Source: a virus. From it: a DNA stretch of 22,925 nucleotides. Made by a program: the position numbers and the translations under genes. The stretch is from the IMG/VR virus record IMGVR_UViG_3300042560_000304, positions 1 to 22,925 of that record, one strand, 5' to 3'. The notes beneath the pieces are model-generated. The model made no database searches and was not told the origin of the DNA. It saw only the letters and a program-made list of their open reading frames with translations. Numbering within the stretch: the stretch's first letter is position 1; each line of letters begins with the position of its first letter. This document shows, one piece after another, positions 1 to 22,815 of the stretch.

Positions 1-44
1 ATTGGGCTGCGCCCACACCGTAAACCATTCCCCCGAGATGAATC

Positions 45-3975: not shown

Positions 3976-4394
3976 GCAGCACCTACAACGACGTTCGCGC
4001 TGCCATTGAAGGTCGCATCGCCACTGAGATGGCGCTGAACCCTGTATATCCGGTCAGCTATCAGAACGTCCCGTACAGCCCACCCAACAACACGCCATGG
4101 CTGCAGGTGTTCATACGCTTTGGCGATAACGCCTACGCGACGCTGCTGCCTACTGGTGGCGTTGGCATGAACCGGCAAAACGGCACGCTGACCGTGAACG
4201 TGTTTACCCCAGTCGGGCTTGGTGCTGGCGCTAATTTCACCATTGCAGAGCGCGTGAAGGACCTGTTTGACCGTAAAACGGTGTCAGCAATCAACTTTGA
4301 CGCAGCATCGGGTCCGGCGCAGGTCACGCCAGCATCGCCTGAGCCGTATTACCAGACGCAGTTGACGATTACTTTTGAGGCGTATTTAAACTGA
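3972..4394 (+). CDS. Tail terminator protein (DUF4128-like)
   Basis: A 140-residue protein. The N-terminal helix YNDVRAAIEGRIATEMA (residues 4-20), a following NVPYSPPNNTPWLQVFIRFG stretch and a TLTVNVFTPVGLGAG strand-loop fit the phage tail-terminator-like family DUF4128. The protein would cap the growing tail tube and dock it to the neck. I chose the ATG at 3972, which overlaps the previous stop as ATGA, because family members begin right at this helix. An upstream in-frame start would overlap the gp10-like gene heavily. It is the last gene before a 37-base gap containing a candidate promoter. Confidence 0.75.
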   Translation: MSSTYNDVRAAIEGRIATEMALNPVYPVSYQNVPYSPPNNTPWLQVFIRFGDNAYATLLPTGGVGMNRQNGTLTVNVFTPVGLGAGANFTIAERVKDLFDRKTVSAINFDAASGPAQVTPASPEPYYQTQLTITFEAYLN

Positions 4395-4402
4395 GTTAGA
4401 CT
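4375..4402 (+). promoter_or_regulatory. Candidate promoter for the major tail protein gene
   Basis: TAGACT at 4397-4402 lies in the short gap between the tail terminator and major tail genes, 29 bases before the ATG, with a weak TTGAGG at 4375-4380 spaced 16 bases away. The hexamer matches TATAAT at four positions, including the key A2 and T6. The downstream gene lacks a Shine-Dalgarno sequence and ends in a terminator. The same hexamer recurs before other late genes. This is inference only. Confidence 0.35.
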
Positions 4403-4431
4403 GACGCAAGCCAACTACCGCTCACAGGCTC

Positions 4432-5178
4432 ATGGCAACTGTTCTGTCCGGTACGTCCGGCGCTCTTTATTACGCACCCGCAGGCACCAGCGTGACCACG
4501 CTTGCCGCAGGTGCATTCCCATCGACCGGTTCCAACATCACCGTTGGCACCTACCTGGGCTTTAAGGTCAACGACCCCGTGACCCTGGCCTACCCCGCTG
4601 GCGCTACCACCACCAACGCCATTGCTGCTGGTGCTTACTTCGTTAAGACCTACGTCGCCAGCACCGGCATCATGACCATCAGCAGTACTGCTGGTGGCGC
4701 TGCTGCAAGCGCCACTGCATCCCCCAGTGGCTTCGGCGCTAACTTTGCCAGCATCACCTACACCGCTCCCGCTGCGGTTGGCGAGGTGCGGGAATGGAGC
4801 TTTGAAATCACCCGCGAGGAGATCGACGTTACCACCATCGGTCAAGAGTCGGCGCAATACGCCCCGTTCCGCGCTTATATCACCGGCTTTGCTGACGGTG
4901 AAGGTTCGGCCATGGTGTATATCACTGATGACGACACCAACCTGGCCAGCCGCATGGTCGAGGACGTGATCCAGCGCAACCAGTCCGGCGCTCAGATGAA
5001 GCTTTACATTGACCGCGTGATTGCCAGCGGCACTGTCAACGAGACCACCAGCCGGTCGATTTTGGTTCCCGTGATCCTGACATCAGCCAGCTTGACGGCT
5101 AACCCTGATGACGCACAGATGGTGGAAATTGCATTCCGTCCGTCGGCTGCTCCTACGTTTGACTTCAGCAAGTCGTAA
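4432..5178 (+). CDS. Major tail tube protein
   Basis: A 248-residue protein of tail-tube type. The tube fold is suggested by an N-terminal strand (SGTSGALYYAPAG, 6-18) and a C-terminal core. The core begins with VGEVREWSFEITREEIDVTT (116-135) and continues through paired strands to EIAFRP near the end. A region of about 90 residues between them (about 30-113) looks like an inserted beta domain that would protrude from the tail. The tail terminator lies upstream and the assembly chaperones downstream, the normal order. A candidate promoter precedes the gene and a strong terminator follows 10 bases after the stop, consistent with high, separate expression. Two later genes (11024 and 11449) look like divergent paralogues. 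Confidence 0.85.
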   Translation: MATVLSGTSGALYYAPAGTSVTTLAAGAFPSTGSNITVGTYLGFKVNDPVTLAYPAGATTTNAIAAGAYFVKTYVASTGIMTISSTAGGAAASATASPSGFGANFASITYTAPAAVGEVREWSFEITREEIDVTTIGQESAQYAPFRAYITGFADGEGSAMVYITDDDTNLASRMVEDVIQRNQSGAQMKLYIDRVIASGTVNETTSRSILVPVILTSASLTANPDDAQMVEIAFRPSAAPTFDFSKS

Positions 5179-5589: not shown

Positions 5590-5771
5590 AAGCCCAGGTC
5601 AAGCGCGACTGGATGCTGCGGTTGCAGATGCAGTTGGCGCGGGACTTGGGCTATACGCTGATGGAGCTGTCAGAGCGGATGACGCCGCAGGAGCTGCAGC
5701 TATGGGCCACGCTGTACGAAGTGGAAGCGCAGGAGCGGCAAGAAGCATCACGCAAGGCTAGACGCAGGTAG
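5248..5771 (+). CDS. Tail assembly chaperone, -1 frameshift fusion (GT-type)
   Basis: Reading shifts back one base at 5580-5586. Translation then continues from 5586 for 61 more codons to TAG at 5769-5771, giving about 174 residues. The extension is clean coding sequence: basic start (LKAQVKRDWMLRLQMQLAR), then DLGYTLMELSERMTPQELQL, then an acidic/basic helix ending in KARRR. The LGYTxxELxERMTxxEL pattern is what I expect of T-domain proteins, which contact the tube protein in lambda. The -1 frame has no convincing separate start, which supports production only by frameshifting. It fills the whole gap up to the tape measure gene. Confidence 0.85.
5580..5586 (+). promoter_or_regulatory. Programmed -1 ribosomal frameshift site (A AAA AAC)
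   Basis: The heptamer A AAA AAC fits the X XXY YYZ rule in the zero frame (GCA AAA AAC) and is followed at once by the zero-frame TAA. After slippage both tRNAs re-pair on AAA, and the next codon is CTA of the T-domain. A nested inverted repeat lies at 5604-5641 (CGCGACTG / CAGT-TGG-CGCG around CTGC-GGTT-GCAG). Its 17-base spacing is longer than typical stimulators, so its role is open. Confidence 0.85.
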
Positions 5772-5774
5772 AAT
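5769..5774 (+). promoter_or_regulatory. Possible -10-like element before the tape measure gene
   Basis: TAGAAT matches the -10 consensus at five of six positions and lies 22 bases before the GTG start of the tape measure gene. Its TAG is also the stop codon of the frameshift product, so it may be coincidental. No good -35 box is visible. It is listed because it fits a recurring set. Confidence 0.2.
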
Positions 5775-5796
5775 GACTTAAGTCAGGCTGTCGGTC

Positions 5797-8148
5797 GTGT
5801 CTGTCGTCGCCAATGTTGCTATTAACGTTGACGGCAGGCAAGCGGTCAACGAGCTAAATAAAGTTGAAAGCGCTACCAATCAGCTAAACCAAGGATTCAA
5901 TGCCCTAAAAAGCGCAGCTGCAGCATTGGCTGGCGCATTGATCGTCAAGTCGATTGCCGACGTTGGCGCTCAGTCGCAGCAAACAAAACTGCAACTGCAA
6001 TCATTAACGCAACAATACGGTGAGCTTGAAAAAGCTACCGCATCTGTTGATCGTATTCAAAAAATCTTAGGCATTAGCGCCATTGAAGCAAGAGAAGGAT
6101 ATGCACAGCTTTATGCAGCTTTGCGCGGCACTGGTGTAAGCGCTGAGCAGCTAGAGGTTCTATTTGTCGGTCTGACCAAGGCGGCGCGCATGTCCGGTGC
6201 TGGTGCTGCAGAAGCTCAGGGTGCGTTATTGCAGCTCAAGCAGGCATTTGCCAGCGGCACGCTCTCTGGCGATGAATTGCGGTCTGTACTTGAAGCAATG
6301 CCAGCATTGACGCAGGCAGTCGCCAAAGAAACTGACAGGCTTGGGCTAACTTCTAACGCAACATCTGCGGACATCAAGCGGTTAGGTAGTCAAGGCAAAC
6401 TTACCTCTGACATTCTGTTTGCTGCTGCGCGCAACATTGCTTTAAGCAACACACGGCAACTGACCTCATCCGAGGCATTGAGCGCGGCATACAAGAATCT
6501 GCAAGAACGCATTGCGGAGGCATTCGGCCCGGCGCTTGTGTCAATCGTTGAAACATTTGCCGCTGCTATCGGCGCGCTTGGGCGATATATAGAGTCAAAT
6601 AAAGAATCAATCACTTCAGTCGTCAATGCAATTATCAATTTCGCAAAAGCAGTCGGACCATTGGCCGCTGGGATCTGGTTAGTAATTAAAGCCTATCAAG
6701 CATGGGCTGTTGTTTCTAAAGCATTGGCAGCAACCCAAGCTTTTATTGCTGCATTAACAGGACCCAAAGGGATTGCTCTTGTTGCTGCTGCTGGCGTAGC
6801 GGCTTTTGGCGCTTATCAAACATTGAATGGAGTGCTCAAGGGGACAGAGGCTGAACTTAAAAAACAAAGTGAAGAATCAAAGAAAGCTGGTGATGAGTTT
6901 GGTAGGATTGCACAGAATGTTGGCGAGTTGCCGAATAAAAGCAAAGCAGCAGCCGAAGCAAACAAAGTCTTCACAGATGGAACTAAGCAAGCGCTAGATA
7001 ATATCACAGCACAGCGAATTGAAATCGACGCACAGATTGCATCGCTAACTCGTGGCGCATCAATTACAGCTGCGCGGTATGAAGCCGAAAAAGCAATACT
7101 TGACCTGCGCAACCAAGAGCTTGAGCGGGAATACAACCTAGCGCAGACCGCAGAGCAACGGTTGAATATTGCGGCTGCAATCTTCCAGAATCAAGTCCAA
7201 GCGGCAGAGGTTGAATACAGGCAGGCACTGGAAAATATCACGCTTGAGCAGCGCAAGGTTGAGCTGCAACTGCAGCAAGAGCAACTGAAGTATCGGCAGA
7301 TTGAAGCCGAAGGCAAGCTGCAAATCCTAAAAGCTAAAGACGCAGCAGAGGAAGCCGAGAAGGCCAGAAAACTAAAAGATGCACTTGCGACGCAAGAACA
7401 GGTCATTTCTGCCACACGAGAAAACCTCGGCGCTCAGCAGCAGATTGCGGCCTACCAAAAGCAAGCAGCTGAAACACAATATCAATCCAAAGTGCTGACA
7501 GCTCAAACTGGACTAGAGCAAAAGTTGGTCAGCGATAAAATTGGCCTTAGCCAAGAGCAAGCTACAAGGTTGTCCAATGAGTTGGCTAACGGCGCTATCC
7601 GCTCGCATGAGTTAGCGAACAACACTGAACGCGTATCGCAGAACGCATACAACGCTTCCGGCAATTTCATCCGTGTTGCCAATGCGGCAGACCGTGCAGC
7701 TACTGCTATTCACGGTGCAGCCAACGCACAAGAGCGGCTAAATGCTGCCCAGGGTGGCGGCGGTGGCGGTGCGCCGAAACAAGCCGCCGAGGGAGCTTAC
7801 TGGTCCGGCGGCTTTAAGGCATTTGCTGAAGGCGGTGTTGTCACCAAGCCAACCATGGGCATCGTTGGCGAAGGCGGCGAGCCTGAGTACATCATCCCGG
7901 CAAGCAAAATGGCCGAGGCGATGCAGCGGTATGCGGCTGGCCAGCGCGGCTCCAGTGTGATACCGTCTAGCATTAACCCACAGGTCAGCGTCACGACTGG
8001 CCCAGTCATGAACATGGGTGGCACCAACTTCGTCAGCCAGCAGGATTTCATGATGGGGATGCAAACCGCCAGCCGCCGTGGCGCTGAGATGGCGATCCAG
8101 CTGCTGCAAGGCAATAACAGCGTCCGCCGTCGGGCAGGGGTGGCGTAA
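5797..8148 (+). CDS. Tape measure protein
   Basis: A 783-residue protein that sets tail length and is threaded through the tube. It has a short N-terminal segment (NVDGRQAVNELNKVESATNQ, 11-30) and a conserved tape-measure domain (about 60-240), which includes AEQLEVLFVGLTKAARMSGA and LSGDELRSVLEAMPALTQAV. A hydrophobic stretch follows (about 285-345), probably the membrane-inserting part. Next come long Glu/Gln/Ala-rich coiled coils (about 380-560), a Gly-rich linker, and a C-terminal EGGVVTKPTMGIVGEGGEPE motif common in these proteins. At roughly 1.5 angstrom per residue the tail would be near 115-120 nm. The start is GTG and no Shine-Dalgarno sequence is visible. The central region is more AT-rich than its neighbours. 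Confidence 0.93.
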   Translation: MSVVANVAINVDGRQAVNELNKVESATNQLNQGFNALKSAAAALAGALIVKSIADVGAQSQQTKLQLQSLTQQYGELEKATASVDRIQKILGISAIEAREGYAQLYAALRGTGVSAEQLEVLFVGLTKAARMSGAGAAEAQGALLQLKQAFASGTLSGDELRSVLEAMPALTQAVAKETDRLGLTSNATSADIKRLGSQGKLTSDILFAAARNIALSNTRQLTSSEALSAAYKNLQERIAEAFGPALVSIVETFAAAIGALGRYIESNKESITSVVNAIINFAKAVGPLAAGIWLVIKAYQAWAVVSKALAATQAFIAALTGPKGIALVAAAGVAAFGAYQTLNGVLKGTEAELKKQSEESKKAGDEFGRIAQNVGELPNKSKAAAEANKVFTDGTKQALDNITAQRIEIDAQIASLTRGASITAARYEAEKAILDLRNQELEREYNLAQTAEQRLNIAAAIFQNQVQAAEVEYRQALENITLEQRKVELQLQQEQLKYRQIEAEGKLQILKAKDAAEEAEKARKLKDALATQEQVISATRENLGAQQQIAAYQKQAAETQYQSKVLTAQTGLEQKLVSDKIGLSQEQATRLSNELANGAIRSHELANNTERVSQNAYNASGNFIRVANAADRAATAIHGAANAQERLNAAQGGGGGGAPKQAAEGAYWSGGFKAFAEGGVVTKPTMGIVGEGGEPEYIIPASKMAEAMQRYAAGQRGSSVIPSSINPQVSVTTGPVMNMGGTNFVSQQDFMMGMQTASRRGAEMAIQLLQGNNSVRRRAGVA

Positions 8149-17030: not shown

Positions 17031-17046
17031 TCATTCCAACTAGACT
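17017..17046 (+). promoter_or_regulatory. Candidate promoter before the fibre-assembly-like gene
   Basis: TTGAAG (17017-17022) and TAGACT (17041-17046) are separated by 18 bases, and the hexamer lies 20 bases before the ATG at 17067. The TAGACT is in the gap and is not a stop codon of the previous gene. The downstream gene lacks a Shine-Dalgarno sequence. It is part of the recurring TAGA(C/T/A)T set. Confidence 0.38.
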
Positions 17047-17066
17047 GCCAGAACGGATCTAGACCC

Positions 17067-17588
17067 ATGTTCCTCCTCGACGGCCGCCCCCTCAGCCCAG
17101 ACGTGGCGTTTACCGACGTCAATGGCATCCAGCACCCGTCCAACTGGCTCAGGCTGGCCAGCCCTGAGGAGCGCGCCGAGGCAGGCATCACGGAGGTGCC
17201 TGACCCTGAACCATACGATCAGCGGTTCTACTGGGGGCCTGGTCTGCCCAAGGATCACACGCAACTGATCGAGCAGTGGACGCAGCAGACGCGCACCACC
17301 GCGAACACGCTGCTGGCTCCTACGGACTGGGTCATCATCCGCGAGGCCGACAACGGTAAGGCTGCTGACCCGCTACTCAAGACCTGGCGCGAAGACATCA
17401 GGCTGGCTACTGGTGTGAAGGTCACAGCCATCCGCGACACCCTGGACACCGACGAGCTGGCCACCTACATCACTGGCGCCAACTACCCCGTGTGGCCTGC
17501 TGACCCTTACGCGCCGCAGCCGGTGGCAGACGACACCGTGTTGTTTGCGGCCAACAGCACCAGCAGCGGGTTTAGCATGAGCGCATGA
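17067..17588 (+). CDS. Tail-fibre-assembly-like protein
   Basis: A 173-residue protein. The early part (FLLDGRPLSPDVAFTDVNGI, 2-21; HPSNWLRLASPEERAEAG, 23-40) and the motif TDWVIIREADNG followed by LKTWREDIR (86-112) match the general pattern of phage tail-fibre assembly and DUF4376-type proteins. In that pattern, TDWxxxR and a helix with Arg pairs occur after a prolyl-rich host sequence. Such proteins often act as chaperones for fibre trimerisation. The C-terminal 30 residues are Pro/Ser-rich and variable. The gene comes two genes after the large fibre genes and overlaps the next start (ATGA). The call is moderate; no search was possible. Confidence 0.6.
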   Translation: MFLLDGRPLSPDVAFTDVNGIQHPSNWLRLASPEERAEAGITEVPDPEPYDQRFYWGPGLPKDHTQLIEQWTQQTRTTANTLLAPTDWVIIREADNGKAADPLLKTWREDIRLATGVKVTAIRDTLDTDELATYITGANYPVWPADPYAPQPVADDTVLFAANSTSSGFSMSA

Positions 17589-17976: not shown

Positions 17977-19033
17977 GGAACCAATCAAGCTGACCGACCT
18001 GTTTCGGTACTACAAACACGGCACGCCGCACCAAATGGCGGCGATCGTTGAACTGGAAGCGGAGCTGTTAAAGGCTGCGCCGGAATTGTTTAATAAAGAC
18101 CAGGCGTGGTACAAGGCATGGCAGCAAGGCGGCAAGCTGCACAACTATGACGCGGCTGCCACGCTCATCCGCGAGTTTGAGGGCTGCCACCTGTCGGCTT
18201 ATCCGGATCCGCTTAGCGGCGGCGAGCCATGGACCATTGGCTATGGCACCACCAGATACAGCGACGGCCGTAAGGTGCAACGCGGCGACAAGATCAGCGT
18301 CATCGACGCCAACCGGCTGCTGGACCTAGAGATCGAGCGCATCGCCAGCAAACTGCGCAGCACGGTGCCGTACTGGAACGCAATGAGCGGCGACAAGCAG
18401 TGCGCGCTGATTAGCTTCGCCTACAACCTTGGCTCGGGTTTCTACGGTGCTGCTGGCTTTGAGACCATCAGCAAACGGCTCAAGGCGAAGGAGTGGCCAC
18501 AGGTGCCTGAGGCGCTGCTGCTGTACCGCAACCCCGGAACGGCCGTAGAAGCTGGCCTGCTGCGCCGCAGGCAAGCGGAAGGCAGGCTATGGGGTATTGA
18601 GTCACAAACTGCCAAGCTGAGCCCTAGCAGCCCGTTTTCAGCGCGGATCACGCCCCACATACGGCTAGGCGAGTTTGCCCTTGATCAAGAGGCGCGGCGC
18701 TTTGATCACCAGTACCAGGTTGATACAGCCGCAGAGCTGGCAGCATTCCTCGAGCGGGTGCGGGGTGCGTTCGGTGGTAAGCCGGTGGTCATCACCAGCG
18801 GGTATCGACCGTCAGCCATCAACCGCAGCGTTGGTGGTGCGAGCCAGTCAGAGCACCTCTATAACGCACCCAGTGTCGGCGCGGTGGACTTCTACATTGC
18901 AGGCGCTGACATCTACGCGGTGCAGGACTGGTGCGTCAAGCATTGGCCATACAGCACCGGCCTAGGCGCGCCTAAAGGCTTCGTGCATCTAGGGATACGC
19001 CAAGGCAAGCCGCGTCTCACCTGGCCTTATTAG
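17969..19033 (+). CDS. Bifunctional endolysin: GH24 muramidase plus M15 peptidase
   Basis: A 354-residue protein with two peptidoglycan-cutting domains. Residues about 60-210 form a phage-type GH24 lysozyme: E71 in REFEG, D80 in AYPDP and T89 in WTIGYGT make the catalytic E/D/T set, and ISFAYNLGSG (148-157) is the standard second motif. Residues about 235-350 form an M15-type (D-Ala-D-Ala carboxypeptidase-like) metal site: VVITSGYR (273-280), H296 in SQSEH, D307 in GAVDFYI and H340 in FVHLG. The N-terminal 58 residues are an unassigned helical leader with no signal peptide, so export depends on a holin. The GTG start overlaps the upstream small membrane gene. Its stop TAG is followed by CT, forming the recurring hexamer. 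Confidence 0.9.
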   Translation: MAKEPIKLTDLFRYYKHGTPHQMAAIVELEAELLKAAPELFNKDQAWYKAWQQGGKLHNYDAAATLIREFEGCHLSAYPDPLSGGEPWTIGYGTTRYSDGRKVQRGDKISVIDANRLLDLEIERIASKLRSTVPYWNAMSGDKQCALISFAYNLGSGFYGAAGFETISKRLKAKEWPQVPEALLLYRNPGTAVEAGLLRRRQAEGRLWGIESQTAKLSPSSPFSARITPHIRLGEFALDQEARRFDHQYQVDTAAELAAFLERVRGAFGGKPVVITSGYRPSAINRSVGGASQSEHLYNAPSVGAVDFYIAGADIYAVQDWCVKHWPYSTGLGAPKGFVHLGIRQGKPRLTWPY

Positions 19034-19036
19034 ACT
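19031..19036 (+). promoter_or_regulatory. Possible -10-like element before the phosphoesterase gene
   Basis: TAGACT lies 24 bases before the ATG at 19061. Its TAG is the endolysin stop codon and no -35 box is visible, so coincidence is possible. The following gene has no Shine-Dalgarno sequence. Confidence 0.2.
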
Positions 19037-19060
19037 CCTGGTGTAAGCCGATACCACGGC

Positions 19061-19912
19061 ATGGCGATTACCACGACGCGGCTGTCGCCAGAGCTGCTAG
19101 AGGTACGGATACCGTATCAGAGCAGGCAGGACTCTGCAACGTTCCTGCTTGCATCAGACATCCACCTTGACAACCCGAAATGCGACCGCAAGCTGCTGTT
19201 GCAGCACTTAGACGAGTGCAAGCAGCGCGGCGGTCGAGCGTTGATGTTTGGCGATGTCATGTGCCTTATGCAGGGCAAAAAAGACAGACGCGGCAGTAAA
19301 GGCGACATCAGGCCCGAGCATCTCGGCGGCAATTACTTTGATCTGGTGTTCCGCGAGTCAGCAGACCTGCTCAAGCCTTACGGCGACATGATCCTGATGA
19401 TGGGCGACGGCAACCACGAGACCGCTGTGCTCAACAACCAAGAGATCGACCCGCTAGAGAACGTCGTCAGGCTCATGCGTAACGATGGCGCAGTCACTGA
19501 GCACATGGGTTATCAAGGCTTCGTGCGGTTTGTGTTTTACCAGCCGACCGGCCGCGTGCGGCGCTGCACGTTGTTCTTCCACCATGGTGCATGGGGCGGC
19601 ATCATCACCAAAGGCACCATGGGCGGTGGGCGGTACGCGCAGATTGCGCCTGACGCTGACATCATGATCAACGGCCACAACCACGAACGCAGCATCGTTG
19701 CGCACCCGTGCTACCGCATCGCAGAGAACGGTAAGGCATGGATTGAGCAGCGCTGGCACTTGCAGACCGGGACCTATAAGCAGGAGTTTGGCGCTACAGG
19801 CGGCTGGGCTATTGAGCGCATCGTGATGCCTAAGTCGCTCGGCGGCATCTGGATGACGCTGCGGCCACGGGACCGTGGCGGCGTTGACATCACCTGCGAG
19901 CCAACGGTATGA
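19061..19912 (+). CDS. Calcineurin-like metallophosphoesterase
   Basis: A 283-residue enzyme with the full set of metal ligands: D33-x-H35 in ASDIHLD, G64-D65 in FGDV, GNHE (117-120), a His pair at 174-175 in FFHHGAW and GHNH (205-208). These define a two-metal-centre phosphoesterase acting on phosphate esters, possibly nucleic acid ends or nucleotides. The exact substrate cannot be read from the sequence. The first 25 residues precede the core and the last 50 hold an extra beta region. It lies after the endolysin, away from replication genes. The stop overlaps the next gene start (ATGA). Confidence 0.88.
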   Translation: MAITTTRLSPELLEVRIPYQSRQDSATFLLASDIHLDNPKCDRKLLLQHLDECKQRGGRALMFGDVMCLMQGKKDRRGSKGDIRPEHLGGNYFDLVFRESADLLKPYGDMILMMGDGNHETAVLNNQEIDPLENVVRLMRNDGAVTEHMGYQGFVRFVFYQPTGRVRRCTLFFHHGAWGGIITKGTMGGGRYAQIAPDADIMINGHNHERSIVAHPCYRIAENGKAWIEQRWHLQTGTYKQEFGATGGWAIERIVMPKSLGGIWMTLRPRDRGGVDITCEPTV

Positions 19913-20091: not shown

Positions 20092-20374
20092 TGGCTCAAA
20101 CCTTATCCCGAAACGCAATGCAAAGCATTCATTCAGAAAACAAATATTCGAAGCATGGGGCCATCAATGCGCGTACTGCGGCGTACTGGCTGACACGCTG
20201 GACCATGTGAAGCCACGCCATAAGGGCGGCGCCACAGTTGCTGAGAATTTGGTGCCAGCGTGCAAAAATTGCAACCGTCGCAAAGGCAGCGAAGAATGGC
20301 GCGAATGGTTCAGCCGTCAAGATTCATGGACCGTTGACCGCGTGCTAAAGATTCAGGACTGGTTGATTGATTAA
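20075..20374 (+). CDS. HNH homing-type endonuclease
   Basis: A small HNH nuclease. From a GTG at 20075 it is 99 residues. Its core has CAYC (a CxxC pair), LDHVKPRHKGG (the first His and the H of HNH), ENLVPACKNCNRRKG (the Asn and a second CxxC). The two CxxC pairs bind structural zinc. The start is uncertain: an ATG at 20024 would overlap the previous gene by 68 bases, while GTG 20075 overlaps by 17 and suits the typical short N-terminus (SNLIPKRNAKHSFRKQIFEA). No Shine-Dalgarno sequence is clear. It ends the plus-strand late block and meets the minus-strand sigma gene tail to tail. Such free-standing HNH genes are often mobile; function in packaging or homing is not determined. Confidence 0.82.
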   Translation: MDHLIDGSNLIPKRNAKHSFRKQIFEAWGHQCAYCGVLADTLDHVKPRHKGGATVAENLVPACKNCNRRKGSEEWREWFSRQDSWTVDRVLKIQDWLID

Positions 20375-20451
20375 GCATCTGGTGATAAAACACCATCGCC
20401 TGCCAATCTTGCGCATGGTCTCTGCACATTCCATTATAACAAACGCGCCAT

Positions 20452-21351
20452 TTATCGTTGTGCTTTTCTATCGTCGGTTCCAAGGGGTGTACCTGTCAAC
20501 GGGTTGCTCATTAGCATACGCAGCCGCTTGATGCCACGGCGCTCAAGATCCTGCAATTTGCTTTTGCTGATGTTAAGATCCCGCTCCAGCTCTGCCCAGG
20601 TAATAGGTTTGCTGATAAGCCGTGCGCGCAATACTTGCTGCGTGATGTCATCAAGGTATTTGTTGAAGTATTCCATCATCTCCTGTATTTCTTGCCTTGC
20701 TTCTTCTTTTGTAAATGCAGGGTCAGCGATCATATCAACAATTACATTGCTTTCAGTGTCTGCAATATGCGCATCAAGGCTGGTGACGCGGTAAGACTGC
20801 TTTAGCAGCATGGATAAATCTTCAACGCCGACGCTGATCTGGTCTGCAATTTCAGTCATCGACGGCGTGCGACCTAGCTCATGGCCTAGTTGCTGCGCGA
20901 CACGGCCAACCTTAAACAGCATTTCATGGACACTGACCGGCAGTTTGATAACCGGGTCATATGTCACCAGCGCTCGTGTAATAGCCTGCCGGATCCACCA
21001 ATAGGCGTAAGTTGAGAACTTGTAGCCTCTGCTTGGGTCGAACAGGTCAACCGCACGCGACAGGCCGATATTACCCTCTTGGATCAGGTCGATAAACTCA
21101 AGCGTCTTGTGGCTGCGTTTGTCGTATTTGCGTGCGACATGGACCACAAGCTGCAGGTTGGACTGGATGAACCGCTGCCTGGCGCGATCACCGCTGCGCA
21201 ACTCGCGGCGTTCGTCGGTCGTCAGCGCACGGTCTAGCTGCTTTAGTTCACGCCATCGCTGCACGCGTCTGCCGAGTTGTATCTCTTGCTGCGGTGTCAA
21301 CAGTGGATATTTAGCGATACTGTTTAGGTAGTCCTTGACATAATCAGCCAT
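20452..21351 (-). CDS. Phage-encoded RpoD-like (group-2 type) RNA polymerase sigma factor
   Basis: A 299-residue sigma-70 family protein. Region 1.2 lies at 3-35 (YVKDYLNSIAKYPLLTPQQE, the cyanobacterial style). Region 2 is at about 60-130, with FIQSNLQLVVHVARKY, LIQEGNIGLSRAVDLFDPSRG and FSTYAYWWIRQAITRAL (2.3/2.4, -10 recognition). Region 3 is at about 138-210. Region 4 at about 222-285 is diverged: the usual RFGL and RERVRQIE signatures are replaced by LRARLIS and KSKLQDLE, although an HTH-like TWAELERDLNISKSKLQDLE remains. It should redirect host polymerase to phage promoters. It is the last gene of the minus-strand operon, downstream of dCTP deaminase. I infer a role in late gene expression. 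Confidence 0.93.
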   Translation of the reverse strand: MADYVKDYLNSIAKYPLLTPQQEIQLGRRVQRWRELKQLDRALTTDERRELRSGDRARQRFIQSNLQLVVHVARKYDKRSHKTLEFIDLIQEGNIGLSRAVDLFDPSRGYKFSTYAYWWIRQAITRALVTYDPVIKLPVSVHEMLFKVGRVAQQLGHELGRTPSMTEIADQISVGVEDLSMLLKQSYRVTSLDAHIADTESNVIVDMIADPAFTKEEARQEIQEMMEYFNKYLDDITQQVLRARLISKPITWAELERDLNISKSKLQDLERRGIKRLRMLMSNPLTGTPLGTDDRKAQR

Positions 21352-21595
21352 GATGAGACCGTTGGTTCACACAATAGAAGCACAGTTTCACGGTGCTGCC
21401 AACGCGCAGGTGTTGCGGGAGCTGCATGAACGCGGCGACTGGAACGGATTGCTGGAATATGCACTGCTGCTGGCTGAGCAAGAAGCCAGCCAGCGGTCGC
21501 AGATTAAGTGGTTGGTTGGCGAGGCAATGCGTTCATGCAGCGTTGAACCGTGGCATCTGGCTGCGGCCAATGAACTGCTTACTGGCGGCCACTAG
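21350..21595 (+). CDS. Hypothetical protein, divergent from the sigma gene
   Basis: An 81-residue soluble protein with amphipathic helices (NAQVLRELHERGDWNGLLEY, 18-37; LLAEQEASQRSQIKWLVGEA). No known domain or motif is visible. Codon use and composition look genuine. Its ATG overlaps the sigma start codon on the other strand (CATGATG), and its end overlaps the 3' end of dCTP deaminase by 63 bases. An alternative ATG lies three bases later at 21353. It is the only plus-strand gene in this minus-strand block. If real, its promoter would lie inside the sigma coding region. A function cannot be assigned. Confidence 0.58.
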   Translation: MMRPLVHTIEAQFHGAANAQVLRELHERGDWNGLLEYALLLAEQEASQRSQIKWLVGEAMRSCSVEPWHLAAANELLTGGH

Positions 21596-22262: not shown

Positions 22263-22488
22263 CTTCTAGATTTTGTGCCATGACTGCTGCACTGCGCAGC
22301 ATGGTGCTGAGCTTGACTGGTTTCATGTCCTTCCAGCAGGCGTACCTGATGGCATGACGGAAGCCCATGCTAATGTTGCCGTCGCCTAGTTTGCGTGCGG
22401 CTTCAATCTCTTCCCGCGTCATGCGGATATTGACCGTCAGGTTGCGGCCTTTACCGACAGCGCGGCGGTCACTTAAGTTATCAGCCAC
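22228..22488 (-). CDS. Ribbon-helix-helix-like putative DNA-binding protein
   Basis: An 86-residue basic protein. Residues 16-22 (NLTVNIR) form a likely beta strand, followed by TREEIEAARKLG (24-35) and GNISMGFRHAIRYA (37-50). This is the strand-helix-turn-helix order of Arc/CopG-type ribbon-helix-helix repressors with the G-x-S-x-G-x-R-x-A-I turn. The remaining 35 residues are helical and may oligomerise. The start is a GTG overlapping the previous gene by 16 bases. It is a candidate early regulator acting with the following zinc ribbon. The assignment is from pattern only. Confidence 0.62.
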   Translation of the reverse strand: MADNLSDRRAVGKGRNLTVNIRMTREEIEAARKLGDGNISMGFRHAIRYACWKDMKPVKLSTMLRSAAVMAQNLEDARRSNTVPEM

Positions 22489-22679
22489 TGCATGTACCAG
22501 TTGGCTTTGCGCATGTCCTGTACTGGGTTGCCTTTGTGTTCAGCGCGCCAAATGTACTTAATGACCTGACCTTTGCAGTAACCCCGGAACTCGTCCGGGG
22601 TCAGTGCTGCTTGGATTGCCTCGATGCACTCAATACCGCCTTGCGTGTAGTGCGGCGGGTGGTTGACCAGATCAGCCAT
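22473..22679 (-). CDS. DUF3310 protein
   Basis: A 68-residue protein with the DUF3310 signature: VNHPPHYTQGGIECIEAIQA (5-24), a DEFRGYCKGQVIKYIWRAEH block (29-48) and a final KANWYMQWLIT. DUF3310 proteins are very common in phages, usually near DNA replication genes, and are sometimes called nucleotide kinases without firm evidence. The length is normal. Its ATG overlaps the end of the 47-residue gene upstream (ATGGCTGA, eight bases), and its stop overlaps the next start. It belongs to the early operon. Confidence 0.88.
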   Translation of the reverse strand: MADLVNHPPHYTQGGIECIEAIQAALTPDEFRGYCKGQVIKYIWRAEHKGNPVQDMRKANWYMQWLIT

Positions 22680-22815
22680 CCTGCAGCAGCTCCATCAGCT
22701 TGAGCACATATGCAGCAAAGGCGACATGGGTCATAACAGCATGGGTGCCCGGAGGCACCCCATAACTGTCACGCCACCACTCCTCAAAGGCTGCTTTGAT
22801 GGCGGGTTCGTTCAT
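22672..22815 (-). CDS. Small hypothetical protein, 47 residues
   Basis: A short ORF from ATG at 22815 to TGA at 22672-22674. It encodes an N-terminal acidic/aromatic helix (AIKAAFEEWWRDSYGVPPGT, 5-24) and a second helix (AVMTHVAFAAYVLKLMELLQ, 26-45). It begins on the stop codon of the SSB-like gene (TGATG) and ends overlapping the DUF3310 start by eight bases. This tight overlap on both sides is the main evidence that it is real. I do not recognise a named family; function unknown. Confidence 0.62.
   Translation of the reverse strand: MNEPAIKAAFEEWWRDSYGVPPGTHAVMTHVAFAAYVLKLMELLQDG

Follow-up and report, generated by a model that had tools for sequence, protein, structure and literature searches.

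The window analysed here, the whole 22,925-nucleotide stretch formed by positions 1 to 22,925 of IMG/VR virus record IMGVR_UViG_3300042560_000304, carries on its minus strand an open reading frame (20452–21351, ATG start) that encodes a 299-residue sigma-70 factor of the cyanobacterial group-2 type. Pfam searches placed regions 1.2 (E = 4e-11), 2 (E = 1e-19) and 3 (E = 8e-11) above the cut-off, whereas region 4, alone of the four, fell below it (E = 0.09, with a score of 12.8 bits where 24.1 are required). The best NCBIfam model was TIGR02997 (cyanobacterial RpoD/SigA), which scored 240 bits and was thus below its cut-off of 384.5. Solved sigma factors align with the protein across almost its full length. 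A fold search with the full model retrieved known sigma factors only; their rmsd was high because the orientation of the domains is not fixed in the model. The original prediction had placed a sigma factor here with a region 2.3/2.4 near the cyanobacterial group-2 consensus, and this was borne out: FSTYAYWWIRQAITRAL matches the group-2 sequence FSTYAYWWIRQG(M/I)TRAI, and an alignment with 16 host sigma factors showed that the residues that read and melt the −10 element are intact in the segment spanning region 2.3–2.4 and the start of region 3.0 (residues 108–135; 20947–21030, minus strand). The retention of regions 1.2, 2 and 3 suggests that the protein would bind the polymerase core. No close full-length host homologue, which would have pointed to an unmodified host gene, was found; the closest host protein found shares 43% identity. 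In a maximum-likelihood tree of regions 1.2–3, the family of the window protein is set off by a branch with 100/99 support and the host proteins lie apart, which indicates that the family is not a recent host capture.

Whole genomes were read for relatives that combine a sigma factor of 60–99% identity with the same capsid gene. The near-complete ones measure about 41–43 kb and are organised in two arms that depart from one intergenic region. One arm carries the genes for helicase, exonuclease VIII, RecT and dCTP deaminase, with the sigma gene last; the opposite arm carries helicase-primase, clamp, terminase, portal, capsid, tail and endolysin genes. In the window, too, no large gene follows sigma in the presumed early arm. 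The same is true of S-CBS1, S-CBS3, KBS-S-2A and S-LBS1, in which the arm that sigma ends runs into the lysis/late arm, by the lysis genes. The group-2 sigma factors of these four phages (rpsD4/RpoD) are homologous to the window protein, with 37–46% identity in the aligned part, and phage sigma factors of this type are already known (PMC6157547, PMC3751600, PMC10452541). The inter-arm region of G001, a relative from the same species as the window and with a 99% identical sigma factor, contains TTGACA-N17-TACGAT inside a CTTG...CAAG dyad. This putative host-type promoter would fit early transcription of the sigma arm, and the original prediction that sigma belongs to an early operon agrees with a gene that closes the arm starting there; early expression of sigma is thus suggested by gene order and promoter sequence. 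The dyad covers both the −35 and the −10 element (G001 22470–22700, with the same place in relatives) and adjoins a small divergent open reading frame (MELAHPLSVQFTAEQL... in G009), which resembles a ribbon-helix-helix repressor by eye and had no Pfam match.

The unusual part of the protein is region 4. We found at least 596 matching stretches in IMG/VR and kept the best 80 loci, with 58–99% identity; the altered region 4 is common to the aligned representatives of these 80 loci and is accordingly due neither to chance nor to an assembly error. Residues were counted in an alignment of 27 family representatives with 16 cyanobacterial sigma factors, with sigma-70 numbering registered on T583, which is residue 262 of the window protein. 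In sigma-70, the region 4 residues considered here act in −35 binding, and H455 reads the extended −10 element. As originally predicted, LRARLIS and KSKLQDLE replace the usual signatures, here host LRFGLEG and RERVRQLE, and −35-contact residues are altered in every relative. The arginine of host RFGL (the R562 equivalent, R243 of the window protein) is invariant in the family. The three residues that follow it in hosts, FGL, are deleted between regions 4.1 and 4.2 in 27/27 members (20620–20625, minus strand). In the recognition helix and its extension (residues 262–282, SKSKLQDLERRGIKRLRMLMS; 20506–20568, minus strand), the E585 equivalent is lost in all 27 representatives (T, S, G, A, N or V instead), as is that of R588 (Q, Y, H, N, S or C instead). 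The R584 equivalent is K or R in 27/27, that of R586 is R or K in 19/27, H in 4 and T or A in 4, and that of Q589 is chiefly N, D, S or T. The contact positions thus differ from member to member within the family. Outside region 4, the H455 equivalent (residue 140, just past region 2.3–2.4) is S in the window protein and S or G in the family, with A or N in two rows, against H in 16/16 hosts; the E458 equivalent is retained in nearly all family members. The window protein is therefore like the cyanobacterial group-2 sigma factors of TIGR02997 in regions 1.2–3 and in its −10-reading residues, and unlike them in its identity of at most 43%, its altered region 4 and the loss of the H455 equivalent. 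The host norm is itself wider than RERVRQIE, since three host paralogues (L126, L141 and L155) have RDRVRNLERDG, which is closer than RERVRQ to KSKLQDLERRG. The sigma factors of S-CBS1, S-CBS3 and KBS-S-2A keep RERIRQ, REAIRQ and RERVRQ, respectively, together with the GL loop, whereas the window protein has no RERxRQ-like helix. Compared with these three phages, the FGL deletion, the E585 and R588 losses and a C-terminal NPLxxTPL tail occur only in the window-type family.

AlphaFold2, run with host sequences in the alignment, predicted region 4 helices at residues 235–245, 252–259 and 263–282 with a pLDDT of about 70–80; without host sequences the same helices were predicted at somewhat lower confidence, and a helix-turn-helix appears in both predictions. 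Among 26 independent pairs of close relatives, dN/dS was 0.021 in region 2, 0.074 in region 3, 0.051 in region 4.1, 0.116 in region 4.2 and 0.070 in the tail. The original prediction called region 4 degenerate. That term goes too far. The domain falls below the Pfam cut-off and has lost contact residues, including the E585 and R588 equivalents in the recognition helix, but the retained R243, the basic residues at the R584 and mostly the R586 positions, the predicted helix-turn-helix and the dN/dS of 0.116 argue that region 4 is rebuilt under purifying selection, not degenerate or decayed. It probably still docks on the beta flap. A pseudo-domain on its way to being lost might be read from the constraint on region 4.2, weaker than on any other part (0.116 against 0.021 in region 2), from the other unusual region 4 helices in the sigma factors of S-LBS1 and G046, and from G033 and G034, which have two sigma genes each (L311/L313), the second of 188 residues and ending ahead of region 4. 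Region 4 thus seems dispensable in the wider phage group. We nevertheless consider decay in the window-type family hardly credible, because dN/dS is far below 1, W, E, R, R, M and P positions are invariant across region 4.2 and the tail, and the tail is conserved. The stop codons of the two 188-residue proteins differ between G033 and G034.

The DNA upstream of the late genes has a sequence pattern of its own. The top two hexamers there were TAAACT (23 occurrences against 2.0 expected) and TAGACT (16 against 1.4). On the late strand, 35/74 TARACT sites lie 8–50 nt ahead of a start, a placement shared by 6.6% of positions, compared with 2/19 sites on the early strand; the two hexamers ranked first and second among 240 letter permutations. 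The genes that follow the sites are those for portal, head-completion, tape-measure, tail and nuclease-like proteins, and the distance to the start codon is mostly 20–27 nt. Sites from related genomes are not independent, and the motif is significant in single genomes (for example, p = 5e-4 in G001, 4e-4 in G018 and 4e-5 in KBS-S-2A). For analysis of the flanks we used 23 non-redundant late sites with dissimilar upstream DNA. These contain no −35 element, the best match to TTGACA being 2.65 compared with 2.80 at random, and TGn precedes the hexamer in 0/23. Column information revealed no new −35 consensus or shared upstream element in the 23 sites, apart from one weak column at −29. An A stands 7 nt after the hexamer in 17/21 late sites and in 6/31 on the early strand, a feature that played no part in site selection; with this A as the expected +1, position −1 is a pyrimidine in 18/21. 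The late pattern is TARACT-G-N4-Y-A(+1), in which the hexamer agrees with TATAAT in 4/6 letters. Nine genomes together contain its full form, TARACTGNNNNYA, 20 times on the late strand and 0 times on the early strand. These sequences look like −10-only, phage-specific late promoters that have neither a −35 nor an extended −10 element. Of the promoter types originally foreseen, −10-only and phage-specific ones are consistent with these data; use of an extended −10 element at the late sites is not supported, and we rejected it on the 0/23 TGn count and the loss of the H455 equivalent. At some TARACT sites on the late strand (G009 15449, G013 11851 and G016 2333), the +1 A is the A of the start codon, and ahead of the tape-measure gene of G001 and G012 it is the A of ATG, which suggests leaderless holin-like and tape-measure messages.

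Counted in the window by itself, the pattern is unremarkable in number, with 5 occurrences against 4.98 expected; what sets these apart is strand and position, each of the five lying on the late strand immediately ahead of a gene. Candidate late −10 elements on the plus strand are TAAACT at 1587–1592 (+1 A at 1599), 20 nt ahead of a head-completion-like gene at 1613; TAGACT at 4397–4402 (+1 A at 4409), ahead of the gene at 4432 for a probable major tail protein, with a second, weaker match ahead of the same gene at 4387–4392 (TAAACT, +1 G); TAGACT at 17041–17046 (+1 A at 17053), 20 nt ahead of the gene at 17067; and TAGACT at 19031–19036, which lies on the endolysin stop codon and 24 nt ahead of a nuclease-like gene at 19061. 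A variant candidate, TAGAAT (5769–5774, plus strand; +1 A at 5781), precedes the tape-measure GTG at 5797, where relatives have TARACT.

The same data bear on what region 4 might do. Conservation of the core-binding regions together with loss of the usual −35 contacts would suit a take-over decoy that mainly competes for the core and so shuts host −35/−10 promoters, yet the intact −10-reading residues and the conservation of the late motif point to productive use, and we regard a decoy role as very improbable. Region 4 might instead be re-specialised for a different, phage-specific upstream sequence, as its constraint (dN/dS 0.116 in region 4.2), its basic residues and its helix-turn-helix would allow. 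However, the 23 late sites share no upstream element, the contact positions are variable in the family, and the DNA upstream of the portal gene is entirely different between subclades while TAAACT is kept. This makes re-specialisation improbable.

Our preferred reading, to which we assign a probability of about 0.6, is that the protein is a phage late sigma factor of cyanobacterial group-2 ancestry that reads −10-only late promoters. The basis is drawn from sequence: homology, predicted fold, changes in contact residues, constraint, promoter pattern and gene order. The second sigma factor of the fellow phages G033 and G034, which stops short of region 4, also speaks for it. Under this proposal, host RNA polymerase with a host sigma factor would read the canonical early promoter and transcribe the early arm, with sigma as its last large gene. 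The phage sigma factor would then join the host core through regions 1.2, 2 and 3, with region 4 probably on the beta flap, and transcription would start at TARACT-G-N4-Y-A(+1), from the −10 element alone, ahead of the genes for portal, head, tail and tape-measure proteins. A normal region 2 combined with an altered region 4 could use such promoters, and we infer that this sigma factor is the reader of TARACT. Because the late promoters have no −35 element, the recognition helix would have been freed from −35 reading and region 4 rebuilt, perhaps to touch DNA non-specifically or to contact a partner.

Phage KBS-S-2A restricts the order of these events. It has the same late motif with no evident −35 element, yet a normal RERVRQ helix. 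The altered helix is thus not needed for −10-only late promoters, which came first or independently, and we rejected a tie between TARACT and the altered region 4. KBS-S-2A likewise gives no support to loss of −35 reading as the cause of the −10-only promoter type. No TARACT was found on the late strand of S-CBS1, S-CBS3 or S-LBS1. TAnnCTG occurs ahead of late genes, at a similar distance, at 6 sites in S-CBS3 and S-LBS1, of 20 in the three genomes, which hints weakly at a related late element.

The late TARACT sites might instead be read by a host sigma factor, perhaps helped by an activator from the phage, in which case the phage sigma factor would have other targets such as host genes or growth-related metabolism. 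With 4/6 letters in common with TATAAT, TARACT could suit a host sigma factor, and KBS-S-2A shares the motif despite a very different region 4. Phage S-H1 keeps TARACT at its portal, tail and tape-measure genes, and searches of its record with tblastn, a profile and Pfam region 2 turned up no sigma gene; S-H1 thus weighs against dependence of the late promoters on the phage sigma factor. However, the S-H1 record also contains no recognisable relatives of the endolysin and holin genes, which lie next to sigma in related phages. The record may therefore be incomplete, and the absence of sigma is uncertain. Moreover, among 28 capsid-bearing records checked, the 8 longest (at least 35 kb) all have sigma (8/8). 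The full pattern is also rare in candidate host genomes (1–3 per genome of 2.4–3.0 Mb), although matched control patterns are rare there too and we make no claim that hosts avoid it. Overall, we judge reading by a host sigma factor unlikely.

Many phages have sigma factors, whose promoters are rarely known; here many genomes allow a sigma family, its altered −35 module and a candidate late promoter bearing a start-site signature to be examined side by side. The late sigma factor proposed here also comes with natural contrasts, namely a normal helix (KBS-S-2A), no region 4 (the second sigma factor of G033 and G034) and no sigma found (S-H1). This makes it possible to test, in abundant freshwater cyanophages, whether region 4 of a sigma factor becomes free for other tasks once −35 promoters are lost.

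One further comparison concerns phage T4, whose late promoters are without a conserved −35 element (PMC2988020); the T4 sliding clamp activates them by way of peptides that gp55 and gp33 carry (PMC2988020, PMC7892883). Like the gp55 system, the window-type genomes combine a sigma-family protein, apparently −10-only late promoters and a sliding clamp of their own, here of the beta type. In T4, sigma region 4 is missing from gp55 and the flap is capped by gp33, whereas the window protein keeps a predicted folded region 4 and no relative of gp33 was recognised. The beta-type (DNA polymerase III) clamp is encoded in every near-complete sigma-bearing window-type genome, an association that counts once because these form a single clade; in G001 (18684–19721) and its kin, the clamp gene is near the terminase gene. 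No beta-type clamp was detectable in KBS-S-2A, S-CBS1/3, S-LBS1, G033, G034 or G046; of these phages, KBS-S-2A shares the late promoters. It is conceivable, if something of a long shot, that −10-only promoters are served by a clamp-activated holoenzyme, with the NPLxxTPL tail or an 81-residue companion protein as the link to the clamp and with region 4 as an adaptor and not a −35 reader. If true, this would be a siphophage version of replication-coupled late transcription; we treat the link between clamp and late transcription as a lead, not a finding.

The tail in question is conserved around NPLxxTPLG (residues 282–290; 20482–20508, minus strand), with both prolines and the threonine conserved at the protein level. 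It had no match among known clamp motifs, and it partly overlaps the start of the next gene, a 57-residue open reading frame with a TTG start (20310–20483, minus strand; no Pfam match) that begins within the last sigma codons. The overlap explains the conservation only in part: both prolines and the threonine use all four codons, and the final leucine is nearly always CTT. Relatives of the 57-residue frame lie downstream of sigma in the window-type family and near sigma in KBS-S-2A, S-CBS1 and S-CBS3. The 81-residue frame (21350–21595, plus strand; for example, G001 29338–29580) diverges from the sigma start codon, with overlapping starts, and occupies the gap between sigma and the dCTP deaminase gene. 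It is present in all sigma-bearing window-type genomes checked, with about 68–98% conservation, and absent from the other phages checked, and is a candidate sigma partner or anti-sigma factor.

The major capsid gene, which starts at position 45, is preceded by a conserved TAAACC (21–26, plus strand) that has no A at +1 and is uncertain as a promoter. In addition, a strongly conserved tandem hairpin-like sequence, GGCTGCGC...GGGCTGCGCCC, lies upstream of the capsid start (window 1–44, and L226–L305) and is a possible signal for RNA processing or translation.
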